From the IMG/VR virus record IMGVR_UViG_3300007512_000031, positions 1-64,000 of that record: a stretch of DNA of 64,000 nt. One strand, given 5' to 3'. The stretch's first letter is position 1, and the number at the start of each line of letters is the position of its first letter. The DNA is from a virus. Below are positions 2,159-53,768 of the stretch, piece after piece. The notes under the pieces were generated by a model. It searched no databases. It saw only the letters and a list, made by a program, of their open reading frames with translations, and was not told where the DNA came from. The position numbers and the translations under genes are program-made.

Positions 2159-3204
2159 GACAATGACTCCATATAGACATCATATATTAGTTTCTTCATT
2201 TTGTTTTTATTTTTCACCTCTTCCATCCCATCAATCTCTTGATTTATGAGTGTTACGGTATCTTGTGCTAAATCTACAGTATCTTCTTCTTTTATGATGC
2301 CTACTATTTCTTCAACAATCGTAATCTTTGCAACCCCACAATCATAAAGTTTATCCATAAACCTATCAAACGAATATGGGTGTTCTTTGTGTTCTACCAA
2401 CAGTTTCACATATGCGCCGTTGAGATATTGATAATCAAAGTTGTCTATGTCAACTATACCATTTTTATCATTATATGATAATGAGTAAAACATCTTGTAT
2501 GGATTCTCTACAAATTCCACTTCTCTTGTGTCGGTGTCTAAAATATGGAAACCCTTAGTTTCATATAAGTCAGAAAAATTTATATCATATTGTGTTCCCA
2601 TATAGTAGATGTTGTCTTTTTCTTGACGACAATGGAAGTGACCAGATAATACCTGCTCATATCTTGCAAATATATCAGGGTTCATTCCACCATCATATTT
2701 AACACCTCGCATAACATCATATCCTTGCAGTTCAAGATGTCCTACAAGAATTGGTGCGGGTGCTGTTTTAATGAAGTCAATTGATTGGTCATAGTTTTCT
2801 TTACACACCCACGGAAGCAATGCAATATCCAAACCATCGAAGTTTACCACTTGGGGTTCTTCATATATGGTTAGGTCATTAGTAAACAACTCACGAACCG
2901 AATTGACTTCATTGGTGTTTCTAAAATAAACATCGTGATTTCCGAGAATACAATGCATCTCGATTCCTTCATCACGAAGTCTATCCATAAACCGTGTTCG
3001 TATTTGACTAAGAATATTGAAGTTGACAAACTTACGCCTGTCCATCAAGTCCCCTGCGTGTATTACTGTCTTTATATCGTTCTCTTTGAGATATGGAAAA
3101 AACACATCATCAAAGAACTTCATAAAGTAGTCAAAAAATAATTGTGAATCACCTCTCGCCGAGAAGTGAGTATCATTTATCAGTGCTATCTTCACTTGGT
3201 TCAT
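2152..3204 (-). CDS. gp47: Recombination endonuclease small subunit (SbcD/Mre11-like)
   Basis: Calcineurin-like phosphoesterase nuclease that partners gp46. Seen, in order: metal-binding motifs NDTHFS (residues 10-15), HAGDLMDRR, LGNHDVYF, VGHLELQG and SGHFHCRQE, all expected in Mre11/SbcD. Length 350 residues against 339 in T4. It starts inside the end of the gp55 gene (overlap 3173-3204) and its stop lies next to the start region of gp46, so gp55, gp47 and gp46 form one tightly packed leftward operon. The two nuclease subunits being adjacent and overlapping fits their stoichiometric complex. Nothing unusual was seen in the catalytic residues. Confidence 0.95.
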   Translation of the reverse strand: MNQVKIALINDTHFSARGDSQLFFDYFMKFFDDVFFPYLKENDIKTVIHAGDLMDRRKFVNFNILSQIRTRFMDRLRDEGIEMHCILGNHDVYFRNTNEVNSVRELFTNDLTIYEEPQVVNFDGLDIALLPWVCKENYDQSIDFIKTAPAPILVGHLELQGYDVMRGVKYDGGMNPDIFARYEQVLSGHFHCRQEKDNIYYMGTQYDINFSDLYETKGFHILDTDTREVEFVENPYKMFYSLSYNDKNGIVDIDNFDYQYLNGAYVKLLVEHKEHPYSFDRFMDKLYDCGVAKITIVEEIVGIIKEEDTVDLAQDTVTLINQEIDGMEEVKNKNKMKKLIYDVYMESLSL

Positions 3205-3799
3205 CCTGTAATATTGAATCTAAATTTCCACTTGCTTTCTTTTTTGCAGTTTTCTTTTTTCTTTTCTTCTTTGGCTCAAATTTCTTAATATCATTCTCGT
3301 TAAGTTTAAAATACTCCGCAACTGGATTTGAAAAGTTTTCAAAATCGGAACTAATATTATGTTTAACATTTTCTGATATTATACCAGTTTCATCCATTAA
3401 TTCAAAACATTTGTATTTAATGTATGATTGTTTTTTCTCTTTTTGAATCCTTCGAAGAAATGCATAATATATTATTTGTGTAAAGTATGAAAACGGATTA
3501 GTAGATTTTTCTGGGTCAAAATTACTACAATACATTAGGCAATTTTCTATACCATCACCTACCATTTCTTCTCGAAAGGGATAATTAATAAAATTAGGTC
3601 GATATGATAAATGCTCTGCAATCTTTAAAAAACATTCGCCAATATAATCTGTAACTGGTGGTTTAGGTTCACCAACATCTTCAGCATCAATAATCATCTT
3701 TTTCCATTTCTTCATTTCTTCAAAGAAAAGTTTATTATCAACATAATGATTAGATTTCTTTACTTTTTTGTGTTGGGGTGGGTCTTCTAACTCATCCAT
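3173..3799 (-). CDS. gp55: Late-transcription sigma factor (sigma70 family)
   Basis: T4-type gp55 replaces host sigma70 and directs RNA polymerase to TATAAATA late promoters, helped by gp33 and the sliding clamp. Seen: a basic N-terminus, then a region-2-like block around NPFSYFTQIIYYAFLRRIQK (about residues 102-121), the most conserved part of the gp55 family; a lysine-rich tail near KKKRKKKTAKKK follows. 208 residues against 185 in T4. It is the first gene after a strong sigma70-type promoter (3826-3854) and heads the gp47-gp46 operon. The downstream gp47 start lies inside its last codons. Identification rests on the region-2 block and on synteny. Confidence 0.88.
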   Translation of the reverse strand: MDELEDPPQHKKVKKSNHYVDNKLFFEEMKKWKKMIIDAEDVGEPKPPVTDYIGECFLKIAEHLSYRPNFINYPFREEMVGDGIENCLMYCSNFDPEKSTNPFSYFTQIIYYAFLRRIQKEKKQSYIKYKCFELMDETGIISENVKHNISSDFENFSNPVAEYFKLNENDIKKFEPKKKRKKKTAKKKASGNLDSILQDEPSEDSTDK

Positions 3800-43808: not shown

Positions 43809-44072
43809 TTAATCTCCTGCGTAAACATTTCCAGAACCATTTGCAAGATGACCACATGTTGCAGAATCACCTTGCCGTACCACACCTCTACCGTTTGCTC
43901 TTACAGAATAAGAACTTCTAATCATTTGAGGACCAGAATGTTCATCTTTACCGTGACCAGCAACAGGAGAATATAACAACGCAACAGGCAACCCATTCAC
44001 ATTAACATTACCAGCACCAGACAATATTGTGCCACCTGCTGTATCTAAATATGCTCTTGAAATTCCTGCCAT
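43809..44072 (-). CDS. 5.4: PAAR-repeat spike tip protein
   Basis: 87 residues. Sharpens the membrane-piercing spike and binds the end of the gp5 helix. Seen: Gly-rich beta repeats with the PAAR-type pattern: SRAYLDTAGGTILSGAGNVN, VNGLPVALLYSPVAGHG, VRANGRGVVRQGDSATCGH. His residues (HGKDEH, GH) and Cys are the likely metal ligands. T4 gp5.4 is the equivalent. Adjacent to gp5, as expected. Confidence 0.88.
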   Translation of the reverse strand: MAGISRAYLDTAGGTILSGAGNVNVNGLPVALLYSPVAGHGKDEHSGPQMIRSSYSVRANGRGVVRQGDSATCGHLANGSGNVYAGD

Positions 44073-44080
44073 TTTATTTC

Positions 44081-45079
44081 CTAGTTTAAATCTATAGAAC
44101 TTCCTGCTAATCTCATAGGACCACCAGATTGAATATTCATATGTCCATCAGTTTTAATGTCTAAGTTTCCATCTGATGTAATAACAACATTTCCATCATT
44201 AGTAGTGGTCACGGAAACATTACCATCTACCGTTTGTGTGACACTACCACCAATTACTTCATTTACATCACCGTCTATTTGTATATCTGCATTTCCTTTA
44301 ACATATAATGTAAGATTGCTATCGTTTTCATCTCCAATCAAAACATTTGCATTACCAGAAATGTGTACGAATTTCTTTCCGTATATAATTTCATAGTCAT
44401 CATCAACTACTTTTGTTACTCTACTTCCATCAGGATAAATTTCTTCAAAAGTTCCTCTTTTATGATAAGTATGAATTCTTTCTGCGTTAGGTGTATCATC
44501 AAATTCTTGAATGTGTCCACTCTCTGATTCATACACATGATTGTATGGATATGTTGCATCAAATTGTGTTGGTGGTTCTACCCATCCATGTTCATTCTTT
44601 TCGTTTGCGGTTGGGCGACCTCCCGTTCCAGCAGACAAAATTTTTGATTCGACTATTGTTCCAGTTGTAATCCCTCTAGCCAATCTATTTGTATCAGGTT
44701 CACCTAAGTAGTTTTCTTTTGGATATGTTCCAGATGGGTCATTAAACCCCTTAGATGGTTGTGATGCAAACTGTGGTATCCCTCCAATAGTTCCAAAGAA
44801 TACTGGCTCTTGTGCATTTGCACCATCTCTAAAAAATCCAACAACCCAAGTTCCCTCGACAGGTCCGAGCGGAGTTTGACCAATACCATTCATTGCACCA
44901 GAAGTAATTGGTTGTATTGGATATGCCCAAGGTAAATCTTCTGTTGGTATTCCTAATTTGTTAGCAGTATGCCATCCCAATACACGGATTCTACATCTAC
45001 CAAGTTCCAATGGGTCGTTTCTATCTTCTACAACACCTTGAAACCAAACAAGTCCATCTTTTCCCATGTATTCTTGCAT
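44081..45079 (-). CDS. gp5: Baseplate central spike protein without lysozyme domain
   Basis: 332 residues (T4 575). Seen: N-terminal OB-fold WFQGVVEDRNDPLELGRCRI with RVLGWHT, then EGTWVVGFFRDGANAQEPVF, a linker, and a C-terminal triple beta-helix with repeats GNADIQIDGDVNEVIGG, GNVSVTTTNDGNVVI, GNLDIKTDGHMNIQSGG, as in VgrG/gp5C. The lysozyme domain that lies between these parts in T4 is absent. TAATG overlap with the gp27-like gene. Confidence 0.9.
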   Translation of the reverse strand: MQEYMGKDGLVWFQGVVEDRNDPLELGRCRIRVLGWHTANKLGIPTEDLPWAYPIQPITSGAMNGIGQTPLGPVEGTWVVGFFRDGANAQEPVFFGTIGGIPQFASQPSKGFNDPSGTYPKENYLGEPDTNRLARGITTGTIVESKILSAGTGGRPTANEKNEHGWVEPPTQFDATYPYNHVYESESGHIQEFDDTPNAERIHTYHKRGTFEEIYPDGSRVTKVVDDDYEIIYGKKFVHISGNANVLIGDENDSNLTLYVKGNADIQIDGDVNEVIGGSVTQTVDGNVSVTTTNDGNVVITSDGNLDIKTDGHMNIQSGGPMRLAGSSIDLN

Positions 45080-48649: not shown

Positions 48650-49084
48650 ATGGCATACAAAGGACGATACAAACCGAAACAACCGAAAAAATATATCGGT
48701 AATCCTACTAAGATTATATATCGCAGTTTACTTGAAAAAAGATTCATGCTTTACTGTGATAAAACTGATGCAATCTTAGAATGGGGTTCTGAGGAAGTTG
48801 TAGTTCCATATAAATCTCCTGTTGATAATCGTATGCATCGATATTTTGTAGATTTTATTGTAAAACTTAAAAATAAAGATGGAATAACAGAAGTACTTCT
48901 AATAGAGGTAAAACCAAAAAAACAATGCTCACCACCAAAAAAGCCACAAAAAAAGACAAGAAAGTATTTCACTGAGATGAAAACTTATGGGGTGAATACT
49001 GCTAAATGGAAGGCAGCAACCGAATACGCAGAAAATAAAGGTTGGAAATTTATTATCATAACAGATGAAACATTGTCCCCATAA
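48650..49084 (+). CDS. gp4: Head completion protein with nuclease-like fold
   Basis: 144 residues (T4 150). Needed to finish the head before tail joining. Seen: GRYKPKQPKKYIGNPTKIIY, RSLLEKRFMLYCDKTDAILE, WGSEEVVVPYKSPVDNRMHR, YFVDFIVKL, then LLIEVKPKKQCSPP and WKAATEYAENKGWKFIIIT, almost motif-for-motif T4 gp4. The E...D...EVK set is that of TnsA/PD-(D/E)XK nucleases. First gene of the rightward block; no Shine-Dalgarno visible. Confidence 0.95.
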   Translation: MAYKGRYKPKQPKKYIGNPTKIIYRSLLEKRFMLYCDKTDAILEWGSEEVVVPYKSPVDNRMHRYFVDFIVKLKNKDGITEVLLIEVKPKKQCSPPKKPQKKTRKYFTEMKTYGVNTAKWKAATEYAENKGWKFIIITDETLSP

Positions 49085-50595: not shown

Positions 50596-51297
50596 ATGAC
50601 ATTACCTAAACTTACACTACCAAAATACAATTTAAATATACCATCAACAGAAAAAAATATATCATTTAGACCATTTTTGGTACGAGAAGAAAAAGCATTA
50701 TTGATGGCATTTGAAAGTGAAGATATAAAAAATATTATAACTGCAATGAAAGATATCATACAAGAATGTACATTTGGTAATGTAGACGCAAACGAATTAC
50801 CTTTAGCAGATATGTGTTTTATCTTTTTAAACATCCGTGCAAAATCTGTCGGTGAAATTGCAGAACCATCTTTAACCTGTGAATCGTGTAATGAAACCAA
50901 TTCAGTATCAGTAGATTTGACCGAAGTAAAAATTACAAAAGATGAAAACCACTCTAATAAAATTGAACTTGATGCAGGTAAGGGAATTATAATGAAATAT
51001 CCCACCTTATCAATGCAAAATGTATACAACACTCAAATATATTCACCAGACAATATTAATTTCACTGCTGAATGTATTGATATGATTTATGATGGTGATA
51101 AAGTTTATAAATCTAGTGAATATACGACAGAAGAATTGATAGAATTTATTGACGGATTAACCCATTCTCAGTTTGATAAAATTCTAGAATTTTTTGAAAC
51201 CATGCCAAAACTTTCACATGATGTTGAATTTGAATGTATAAAATGTAATCATAAAAATAAATTTACACTGGAGGGTATTCGAGATTTTTTTCTTTAA
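50596..51297 (+). CDS. gp26: Baseplate/tail assembly chaperone (T4 gp26/gp51 family), zero-frame product
   Basis: 233 residues from ATG 50596, preferred because GGAG (50583-50586) is 9 nt upstream; an ATG at 50581 is possible. Seen: ISFRPFLVREEKALLMAFES (T4_baseplate family hallmark), IKNIITAMKDIIQECTFGN, LADMCFIFLNIRAKSVGE, then two CxxC pairs, CESCNE and CIKCNH, likely one zinc ribbon. It ends EGIRDFFL just after a run of seven T. A -1 slip there would add 62 residues. Position before the tape-measure gene equals that of lambda gpG/GT-type chaperones. Confidence 0.88.
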   Translation: MTLPKLTLPKYNLNIPSTEKNISFRPFLVREEKALLMAFESEDIKNIITAMKDIIQECTFGNVDANELPLADMCFIFLNIRAKSVGEIAEPSLTCESCNETNSVSVDLTEVKITKDENHSNKIELDAGKGIIMKYPTLSMQNVYNTQIYSPDNINFTAECIDMIYDGDKVYKSSEYTTEELIEFIDGLTHSQFDKILEFFETMPKLSHDVEFECIKCNHKNKFTLEGIRDFFL

Positions 51298-51313
51298 GCC
51301 TCTGTCATGAGGC
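51285..51313 (+). promoter_or_regulatory. Candidate -1 programmed ribosomal frameshift signal
   Basis: Seen: slippery heptamer T TTT TTT (51285-51291) in the zero frame of the gp26-type gene (codons GAT TTT TTT CTT TAA), a 6-nt spacer CTTTAA containing the zero-frame stop, and a hairpin GCCTC-TGTCAT-GAGGC (51298-51313). Geometry is textbook for X XXY YYZ sites. Confidence 0.75.
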
Positions 51314-51479
51314 ACTGACTTCATACTACAAATTAAATTTTCAGATGATGCAACACCACAATTATTCATTAGAAGATTTAGAAAATATGATACCGTGGGA
51401 AAGAGAAATATATGTTACACTTTTAACTCAATACATTAAAGAGGAAAATGATAAAATTCAACAAAATACAAGAATGTAA
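51291..51479 (+). CDS. -1 frame extension of the tail chaperone (62 codons)
   Basis: Open -1 frame directly joined to the gp26-type gene. Seen: after the slip it reads SLSLCHEALTSYYKLNF, then QMMQHHNYSLEDLENMIPWE, REIYVTLLTQYIKEEND. This has the look of a conserved protein, and I recall similar 'MQHHKYSL-E-PWER' C-termini in gp26 proteins of marine T4-like phages. An internal ATG (51345) could start it separately, but no Shine-Dalgarno precedes it. Its stop is 3 nt before the tape-measure ATG. Fusion product would be 294 residues. Confidence 0.75.
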   Translation, partial: SLSLCHEALTSYYKLNFQMMQHHNYSLEDLENMIPWEREIYVTLLTQYIKEENDKIQQNTRM

Positions 51480-51482
51480 ACC

Positions 51483-53768
51483 ATGGCAGACATAAACACC
51501 ACAATTAAAAAACTACAGGATAAGGTTGAAGAAGCCAAAAAAGGTGTTCGCGCTACCATGACCGTTGAAGAATTGAGTCGTGAATCTATAAGAGATATTG
51601 TTCGAGAAGTTGGAGAAACAAATGCATATTTGAATAGTGTATTTGATAAACAAGATACAGATTTAGGAGTCACTACCAGAGAACTTAGAAACGAATTAAA
51701 CAAACTTGTAGAAGAAAGTACAGATGCAAGTAGAGACAGATTAAGTGAAATAGAACAAAGAGCAAAAGACATTGCTACTGTTGCGGGTGAAGAAGGCACA
51801 GATGAAAGTGAATTAATAAAACAAATGGCTCAAAATGTCCGAGGTGCTGCTAGAAAAGCAAGAAGTGTATCTGCTACTAGTGGTAGTACTGCTGTATTGG
51901 GAGAGAGTTTATTTACAGGATTATTTGGAGATAAATTTGGTAGATGGTTATTAGATACTCCCGCGGCAGGAAAAAATCAAAAGAAAAGAAGGCTTGCAGA
52001 ACTTAGATTGCAAGTTGCACAAAGTAGATTATCAGAGATGGTAGGTGGTGGTGTTGCTTCGTCTACAGAATATGCAGCAGAGGAAGCAGAAGAAAAAAGA
52101 GAAGCAGAAATTCGAGAAACCGATGTGAAACGAAAAGAAGATGAGGTAATTGGTCTGTTACATCAAATTCTTTTGTTGTTAGGGAAAAACGGAGTTGCAT
52201 TAGATTATGGTGGTACTGTTCCTGATGGTGCAGGTGCTGCGGGCGGTGATGCGGGCAGTGGTGGAATAGGTGTAGGTGATGTTGTCACCACGATAGGCGC
52301 TGCCGGTGGTGCTGCAACAATTGCAAATCCTACTTCAAGAAATTTTATTTGGAGAAATATTAGAAGAGTATTGGGACTGGGTGCTAATAGCACAAAAAAC
52401 ATGGCGTCTAGAACAATACCAAGGGCAATAAGCACAGGCTTATTTTGGGGCAGTCAAGGTTGGGGTAGAACAGTAACAGCAAAGGTTACAGAAAAATCAA
52501 CAATGGCAATGCTATCAAATGGAATGCGATTAGTTGTTGATAAATTTGGAAAAATTACCATCAGAAATTCTGCTGGAAGAATGGTAAAGAATCAAGCAAT
52601 GCTATTAGAGCAATTAGGATTACCTTCTGCTTTAAGAGCAGGTTCAACTGCTGATGATGCATTAAAAATTGCAATAAAAAGTGGACGAATGGCAAGACCA
52701 GGATTTTGGAGGAATTTCTTAAATCCGAGACTAACCGCAAGAGGTCTAGGAAGAACAGCACGAACAAATGCCCTGTTTATGCTTCCATTTGCTACCTATG
52801 ATGTTCTTAGCGGAATGACAGAATCATATAAAACTGGAGGACATCAAACATTAGGTGAAATGTCGATGGACGCAACTGCTGCTTATGGTGGTGCTACTAA
52901 AATGCTAAGAGGTATAACCTGGTTAAATGAACTATTAGGACAAGATTTAGGAACTAATGAAGAAATTGCTCAAGGGTTAGAAGCAGCATTTCATGGTGTT
53001 GATATGAGTAAGCAATGGGATATGATGAATGTTATATTACCTGCTAGGCGTAAAAGACAAAAAAAATTATTAAAAATGATGGCGGGTGGATTTGACCCAA
53101 AATCTACACACGGGAAAAGAATCTTTTATTCTGGTCAACTTATGAATTTGCTTTATGATTTGAAACAAAATCCAAATATGACAGAATATCAAATGAGATA
53201 TGTTGATGACCCACCGGGTTATGTACCGAAACCAAGGTCAGTTACATCTGTAATGGATTCATTAATAGACCAACTCGCATATGCAATTGCAGAAGATGAA
53301 GCCAAATTGGACGGAAAACCACTCGACCAACAAAGAGTTATTCAAATCAGACGAATGTTAAAAGAAGGAAGATTTGCACCACTAGATGCTACAAATGGTG
53401 TAAGTCTTTTGCCTACTAGAATTATTGACAAAGATAAACGAGTTCATTTTAGAGCAGAGATAATTAATAATTTAATGGAAAGTGGTGGCTTTGGTCTTCA
53501 TAGAAACTATTTAAACAAAAGAATATTTGGACCTAGCGTGTCAAGAAACACGGTAGATACAATTAATCAATTAAACAGCAATGCAAGTCTTAGATTAACA
53601 TCAAGTAATGTAAGTAACGCAGATAGAGCATTGGCAATGCTTATCAATCAAGACAATAGGCAAACTAATAACACGACAATGATTGCTGACCCGTTATTAG
53701 ATGATGCACATTCAACAATAAATCGAGAAAGAATCAATGTCAACGAAGAAAACTTTAGTTTAAGTTGA
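51483..53768 (+). CDS. gp29: Tail length tape-measure protein, gp29-like
   Basis: 761 residues (T4 gp29 590). Seen: long alpha-helical N-terminus (residues 1-230) with VEELSRESIRDIVREVGETN and coiled-coil runs, a Gly/Ala-rich membrane-like stretch (DVVTTIGAAGGAATIANPT), a basic helical middle, and a C-terminal tail DRALAMLINQDNRQTNNTTM. Position after the chaperone and its length support the tape-measure role. No Shine-Dalgarno precedes ATG 51483; it lies 3 nt after the stop of the -1 frame, suggesting translational coupling to the frameshift product. Confidence 0.75.
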   Translation: MADINTTIKKLQDKVEEAKKGVRATMTVEELSRESIRDIVREVGETNAYLNSVFDKQDTDLGVTTRELRNELNKLVEESTDASRDRLSEIEQRAKDIATVAGEEGTDESELIKQMAQNVRGAARKARSVSATSGSTAVLGESLFTGLFGDKFGRWLLDTPAAGKNQKKRRLAELRLQVAQSRLSEMVGGGVASSTEYAAEEAEEKREAEIRETDVKRKEDEVIGLLHQILLLLGKNGVALDYGGTVPDGAGAAGGDAGSGGIGVGDVVTTIGAAGGAATIANPTSRNFIWRNIRRVLGLGANSTKNMASRTIPRAISTGLFWGSQGWGRTVTAKVTEKSTMAMLSNGMRLVVDKFGKITIRNSAGRMVKNQAMLLEQLGLPSALRAGSTADDALKIAIKSGRMARPGFWRNFLNPRLTARGLGRTARTNALFMLPFATYDVLSGMTESYKTGGHQTLGEMSMDATAAYGGATKMLRGITWLNELLGQDLGTNEEIAQGLEAAFHGVDMSKQWDMMNVILPARRKRQKKLLKMMAGGFDPKSTHGKRIFYSGQLMNLLYDLKQNPNMTEYQMRYVDDPPGYVPKPRSVTSVMDSLIDQLAYAIAEDEAKLDGKPLDQQRVIQIRRMLKEGRFAPLDATNGVSLLPTRIIDKDKRVHFRAEIINNLMESGGFGLHRNYLNKRIFGPSVSRNTVDTINQLNSNASLRLTSSNVSNADRALAMLINQDNRQTNNTTMIADPLLDDAHSTINRERINVNEENFSLS

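Follow-up and report, generated by a model that had tools for sequence, protein, structure and literature searches.

The question posed by this locus is whether a T4-like tail assembly chaperone gene that has a run of Ts near its end, with a second reading frame open in the -1 phase beyond it, gives rise to one protein or to two. It is established that lambda and many tailed phages use frameshifting to make their tail chaperones (PMC5009743), and an earlier note on this DNA had proposed that a programmed -1 frameshift yields G and GT forms here as well. This proposal is supported by conservation, in many lineages, of the heptamer, of the way the two frames are related, and of the protein encoded downstream. 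The window, by which we mean the entire stretch of DNA analyzed, corresponds to positions 1 to 64,000 of IMG/VR record IMGVR_UViG_3300007512_000031, and from its sequence and those of its relatives we consider it very probable that a programmed -1 frameshift makes a short and a long tail assembly chaperone in this T4-like marine phage.

The chaperone gene and its 3' end

The short form (TAC-N, similar to lambda gpG) is encoded on the plus strand at positions 50596 to 51297 by a gene whose ATG at 50596 has GGAG before it, and its product of 233 residues contains a four-cysteine motif (CESC...CIKC). The PF12322 family spans the whole protein, with residues 8-231 matching profile positions 2-218/219 at an E-value of 4.2e-63, and phrog_150 also matches (E = 3.8e-69); a search of NCBIfam gave no match for the short form or for the extension, and a PDB sequence-profile search with the short form gave no credible match. 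In the AlphaFold2 model of the short form (pLDDT 91, pTM 0.85), residues 1-94 align to 3fgx (Z 7.7) and to the HK97 TAC 2ob9 (Z 7.5) among the PDB chains compared with VIA-align 2, and the next PDB entries below these have Z scores of 4.9 and 2.6. The likeness to the HK97 protein lies in the N-terminal fold of the modeled short form, where the Z of 7.5 extends across 83 residues; the two proteins differ in having only 7% identity and in the additional residues of the short form, from approximately 86 to 232. With Foldseek alone, 2ob9 was found at an E-value of 4.6 and no match to the short form had an E-value below 0.6, and the TAC fold match is thus supportive and not decisive. A Z of 7.5 is middling, and the model supports a TAC fold for the short form at that level.

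The gene ends, as the earlier note had read it, with the 0-frame codons GAT (51283), TTT (51286), TTT (51289), CTT (51292), and TAA (51295 to 51297), which contain the slippery heptamer T TTT TTT at positions 51285 to 51291 that is kept in relatives, and the stop lies one codon past the heptamer. Located 9-10 nt upstream of the heptamer on the same strand is GGAGGG (51270 to 51275), a Shine-Dalgarno-like sequence and putative stimulator. The hairpin that had also been claimed is present: the stem-loop GCCTC-TGTCAT-GAGGC (plus strand, 51298 to 51313) begins 6 nt after the heptamer, and 51298-51302 pair with 51309-51313 to form a 5-bp stem with a 6-nt loop, with a minimum free energy of -10 kcal/mol and a z-score of -2.05 versus dinucleotide shuffles. 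This bare hairpin is the weakest of the window's own signal elements.

When the ORFs of the window are counted from stop to stop, 94 have 100 codons or more; just 4 slippery heptamers fall within their last six codons, and only 2 of those 4 lead into a long open -1 frame; the combination of a heptamer and an open -1 frame in the chaperone gene is, at the level of sequence, beyond chance. The ORF at 3126-3446 (plus strand) has T TTT TTC at approximately position 3431, within six codons of its end, but no more than 19 codons are open there in the -1 phase. A second candidate, T TTA AAC at 44090 on the minus strand (44081-44096), is found where a spike-like gene (44081-45079) ends with GAT TTA AAC TAG and a PAAR-like gene (43809-44072) is open in the -1 frame past the heptamer. 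This candidate was rejected, because the heptamer is not kept in 10 relatives, whose PAAR-like gene carries AGGAG and its own ATG, and an unconserved site before a gene with its own Shine-Dalgarno sequence and start codon indicates that T TTA AAC is there by chance.

Conservation of the slippery site and frame

T TTT TTN is found at the equivalent place in 23 of the 25 named phages that have the extension domain in the -1 frame, the 23 being P-SSM2, S-SRM01, ACG-2014f, DSL-LC03, Mosig, S-PM2, P-HM2, S-SSM4, S-H38, MC09, S-MbCM25, and AG-345-F15, together with Vibrio D484 and KVP40, Sinorhizobium phiM9 and phiM12, Caulobacter Cr30, Rhizobium RHph_I46, Xanthomonas X1, Delftia PhiW-14, Cronobacter S13, Aeromonas G2, and Melnitz-2. 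In P-SSM2, S-PM2, ACG-2014f, Mosig, P-HM2, KVP40, phiM9, phiM12, Cr30, PhiW-14, X1, S13, and others of these phages, the heptamer is the exact point at which homology passes from the 0 frame into the -1 frame. A gp51-like -1 extension also follows the PF12322 gene, without T TTT TTN, in Salmonella PhiSH19 (Ackermannviridae; L114:1995-2220) and Vibrio D524 (L112:1896-2130).

A further 80 IMG/VR loci were gathered by a peptide pattern that lies beyond the heptamer and hence does not select for it, and 79 of the 80 have T TTT TTN at the equivalent place. The single locus without it, L061, lacks, around 1440-1500, approximately 130 nt that would include the slippery site and the second pair of cysteines, which reflects either a deletion or a misassembly. 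Removal of near-duplicates from the IMG/VR loci and addition of the named phages gave a set of 88 loci, 81 of which have a stop one codon past the heptamer, and the 0-frame stop among the 88 is TAG in 38, TAA in 36, and TGA in 14. The codon before TTT TTN is always NNT across this set, although the residue encoded varies among Ser, Asp, Asn, and Ala. Counted on loci that were required to have six Ts, a requirement that 1 of the 80 unconditioned loci failed, T precedes TTT in 88 of 88 cases versus 42.7 expected from synonymous usage in the same genes, and because the loci share ancestry, this and the other statistics across loci are not independent.

The -1 extension and the downstream gene

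The extension (TAC-C, similar to lambda gpT) occupies positions 51291 to 51479 of the plus strand, beginning with TCT at 51291 and ending with a stop codon at 51477-51479. The protein-like frame of 62 codons and the fusion of 294 residues that had been described for this region both hold up, the frame being open to 51479 and the fusion being counted from the ATG at 50596. A match to phrog_634 ("baseplate hub assembly catalyst", the "gp51" of cyanophages) is obtained for the extension with an E-value of 1.6e-27, and it is also matched by the last 50 columns of phrog_150, which indicates that some phrog_150 members are annotated as a single long protein. A tblastn search with the extension alone gave matches in 716 phage records, and substitutions in the extension are biased to the third position of the -1 frame, with 50% at position 3. 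Judged by these features, the -1 extension is a conserved coding protein. Cyanophage records, for example NC_006883.2:7217-7390 (L006), either list it as a gene of its own, "gp51, baseplate hub assembly catalyst", or leave it without annotation.

Adjoining the extension, as in relatives, is a gene of 761 codons in the tape-measure position (51483 to 53768, plus strand). Its ATG at 51483 is separated from the extension stop by a gap of 3 nt and is preceded by ACAAGAATGTAAACC, which is without a GGAG-like motif, in agreement with the claim that this start codon has no Shine-Dalgarno sequence. The 761-residue product has no family match, and the tape-measure name thus rests on position and length; the order chaperone, extension, and tape measure is common to most of the relatives examined. 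On the other side of the chaperone gene, a gp4-like head closure protein (48650-49081, plus strand) shows a match to PF08722, the N-terminal domain of TnsA endonuclease (E = 9.6e-23).

A putative upstream pairing element and lineage-specific hairpins

Where Glu is encoded at the fifth codon ahead of the heptamer, GAG is used in 61 of 70 loci, versus 28% in the remainder of the gene. Across 98 loci, the 21 nt that precede the heptamer give a best pairing to the anti-Shine-Dalgarno sequence (ACCUCC) with a mean z of -1.42 versus a recoding that preserves the protein, and the control positions 30-150 nt farther upstream give z values of +0.08 to +0.29. Downstream of the heptamer, 48-nt segments have a mean folding z of -2.75 versus a recoding that leaves the -1 protein unchanged; for the control segment 60 nt farther downstream, z is -0.3.

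The hairpins in relatives begin 5-6 nt downstream of the heptamer and are lineage-specific. In the P-SSM2-like group the class A hairpin has 11 bp (z -4.09, 40 loci) and in 7 other loci the class B hairpin is compact, with 8 bp (z -4.26), making 47 of 98 loci with a strong hairpin; the remaining 51, about half, are without one (mean z -1.22). A single hairpin common to all lineages was sought among classes A and B and the rest and was not found. In an alignment of 44 class A sequences, 90.1% of cells pair, one pair appears as UA, AU, and GC, two-sided changes are present in 16 sequences, and the covariation score of 0.145 falls to 0.005-0.069 when the partner is slid by 1-3 columns. By this alignment, the class A hairpin shows compensatory changes. 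The 5-bp stem of the window begins one base later than the hairpins of relatives and is weaker. Of the heptamer, hairpin, and frame, for which the earlier note had made conservation among relatives the check, the heptamer and the -1 frame are kept, whereas the window hairpin is absent from the near relative L030 and hairpins differ from lineage to lineage. The recoding and covariation signals nonetheless show nucleotide-level selection on the Shine-Dalgarno-like element and the hairpins in relatives, as far as sequence comparison can speak to it.

A comparator is the -1 frameshift cassette of E. coli dnaX, which consists of a Shine-Dalgarno-like element approximately 10 nt upstream, a heptamer, and a stem-loop 5-6 nt downstream. 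The T4-like chaperone genes are similar in having an upstream Shine-Dalgarno-like element and a heptamer at comparable spacing and, in 47 of the 98 loci, a strong downstream stem-loop, the stem of the window having only 5 bp, but the heptamer is T TTT TTY in place of A AAA AAG, and the 0-frame stop of the chaperone sits inside the cassette, with the result that the frameshift product is extended, whereas that of dnaX is shortened.

Alternative explanations

It is improbable, in our estimation, that the extension is a separate small protein (gp51) translated by termination and reinitiation at a start codon just past the stop. GenBank annotates the extension as a separate gene in P-SSM2, S-PM2, and others, KVP40, phiM9, and Cr30 show TAATG or TGATG overlaps, and an ATG is present at -1 codon 4 or 5 in 40 of the 98 loci, making reinitiation possible in such relatives. 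However, 31 of the 98 loci, the window among them, contain no ATG, GTG, or TTG in -1 codons 2-16, before the conserved block, and in these the conserved extension is not separately startable by the usual codons; the first -1 ATG of the window (51345) would remove conserved residues and is without a Shine-Dalgarno sequence. In the P-SSM2 group, the ATG near the stop sits within the 11-bp stem, and GGAGGG, approximately 25 nt upstream of that ATG, is too distant for initiation. Reinitiation also leaves the conserved heptamer unexplained, and the fact that the heptamer is kept in loci without any start codon counts strongly against it.

Two further explanations would place the change of frame outside the ribosome. 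Slippage on A or T runs is an established alternative for expressing fused frames (PMC5009743), and with a T run of 7 in the window, transcriptional slippage could alter the number of Us in the mRNA and so fuse the frames. We regard this as less probable still, as the run is 6, 7, or 8 Ts long in 83, 12, and 3 of the 98 loci, respectively, which is short for transcriptional slippage, and the X XXY YYZ phase, along with the conserved Shine-Dalgarno-like element and hairpin at ribosomal spacing, implicates the ribosome. An indel from sequencing or assembly in one long in-frame gene might also be considered, given that homopolymers are error-prone and that the window is an IMG/VR virus record, but dozens of assemblies and isolates, obtained independently and using three different stop codons, show the identical frame relation, and such repetition in independent records excludes assembly error, leaving it a negligible probability. 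Programmed -1 frameshifting by the ribosome is our preferred explanation.

Short and long forms in T4 and Vibrio phage Va1

The statement in the earlier note that T4 uses separate genes 26 and 51 is right: T4 gp26 (208 residues) consists of PF12322 only and is unextended, and T4 gp51 (249 residues) has PF12322 at residues 1-201 followed by an in-frame extension; phrog_634, to which the extension of the window is matched, also matches residues 147-246 of T4 gp51. T4 therefore resembles the window in that gp26 and gp51 both carry PF12322 and gp51 carries the extension found in the window, and it differs in that each of the two forms has its own gene, the two being oriented divergently, with no frameshift. 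The abstract by Vladimirov and colleagues reportedly describes frameshifting as apparently conserved across several groups of T4-like phages, with the T4 group using genes 26 and 51. The gp51 proteins of RB49 and Proteus SJ_PmiM have PF12322 and an in-frame extension, as does T4 gp51. Vibrio phage Va1 (L023) exhibits a third arrangement beside frameshifting and the divergent T4 pair, with an unextended copy at 278-928 (PF12322, E = 5.7e-24) directly upstream of a fused copy at 931-1620, the tandem genes (278-1620) having the same orientation. Since T4, RB49, and Va1 carry the extension fused on a second PF12322 copy, the fusion protein is a normal gene product elsewhere, and the phages with in-frame fusions also retain a short copy, which, as read from their genes, matches what a requirement for two forms predicts.

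Proposed mechanism and relation to earlier work

Slippage, its rate, and the action of the chaperone are the parts of the mechanism that we infer. The majority of ribosomes would terminate at the TAA at 51295 and release the 233-residue short form, and a minority would pause on T TTT TTT, held upstream by pairing between GGAGGG and 16S rRNA and downstream by the hairpin, whereupon both Phe tRNAs would slip back by one base and 62 more codons would be translated to give the 294-residue long form. By analogy with lambda G and GT, the short form may coat the tape measure protein, and the extension on a few long copies may recruit tail-tube subunits. The likeness to lambda consists of a chaperone gene before the tape measure gene, a -1 slip near the 3' end, and short and long products, the slip and the long product being predicted ones in the window; the window gene differs in belonging to the PF12322 family and in having the four-cysteine motif and a 62-codon extension.

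The claim of novelty, that this would extend the mechanism to a T4-like tail, does not stand. According to two papers that cite the work (PMC10885494, PMC12846349), the gp26 and gp51 genes had already been identified as T4-like tail assembly chaperones (Vladimirov, Gautam and Davidson 2022, Virology 566:9-15, PMID 34826709), with the PRFect paper (PMC10885494) citing it for T4-like phages with one short and one long fused gene and the paper on phage Adele (PMC12846349) citing it for poly-T slippery sites in T4-like TAC-N genes. The window shares with those chaperones the gp26/gp51 family, a -1 extension homologous to the gp51 C terminus, and a poly-T slippery end, and differs in coming from an uncultivated marine relative. 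Given the earlier publication of the mechanism for T4-like phages, the finding in the window, though correct, is a rediscovery made in a new marine phage, and the Shine-Dalgarno-like stimulator and lineage-specific covarying hairpins may be an unreported detail.

We lean, by a narrow measure, toward the broader interpretation that T4-like chaperone genes contain a three-part cassette of an internal Shine-Dalgarno sequence, T TTT TTY, and a hairpin, in which the slip site and the Shine-Dalgarno element would be ancient, the hairpin would have been swapped in each lineage, and the ratio of long to short form would have been retuned in evolution, with the split genes of T4 and the tandem pair of Va1 being two different escapes from frameshifting. 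Hundreds of genomes of cyanophages and pelagiphages carry a short ORF annotated as a separate "baseplate hub assembly catalyst gp51"; on the frameshifting interpretation, this ORF is the C-terminal half of a chaperone made by frameshifting, and the "gp26 baseplate hub" is an assembly chaperone, such that these annotations can be corrected. A likely ancestor is thereby provided for the split genes of T4, and the Shine-Dalgarno elements, heptamers, and hairpins, which exist in many natural variants, provide a ready series in which to measure how the efficiency of -1 frameshifting sets the ratio of the two forms.
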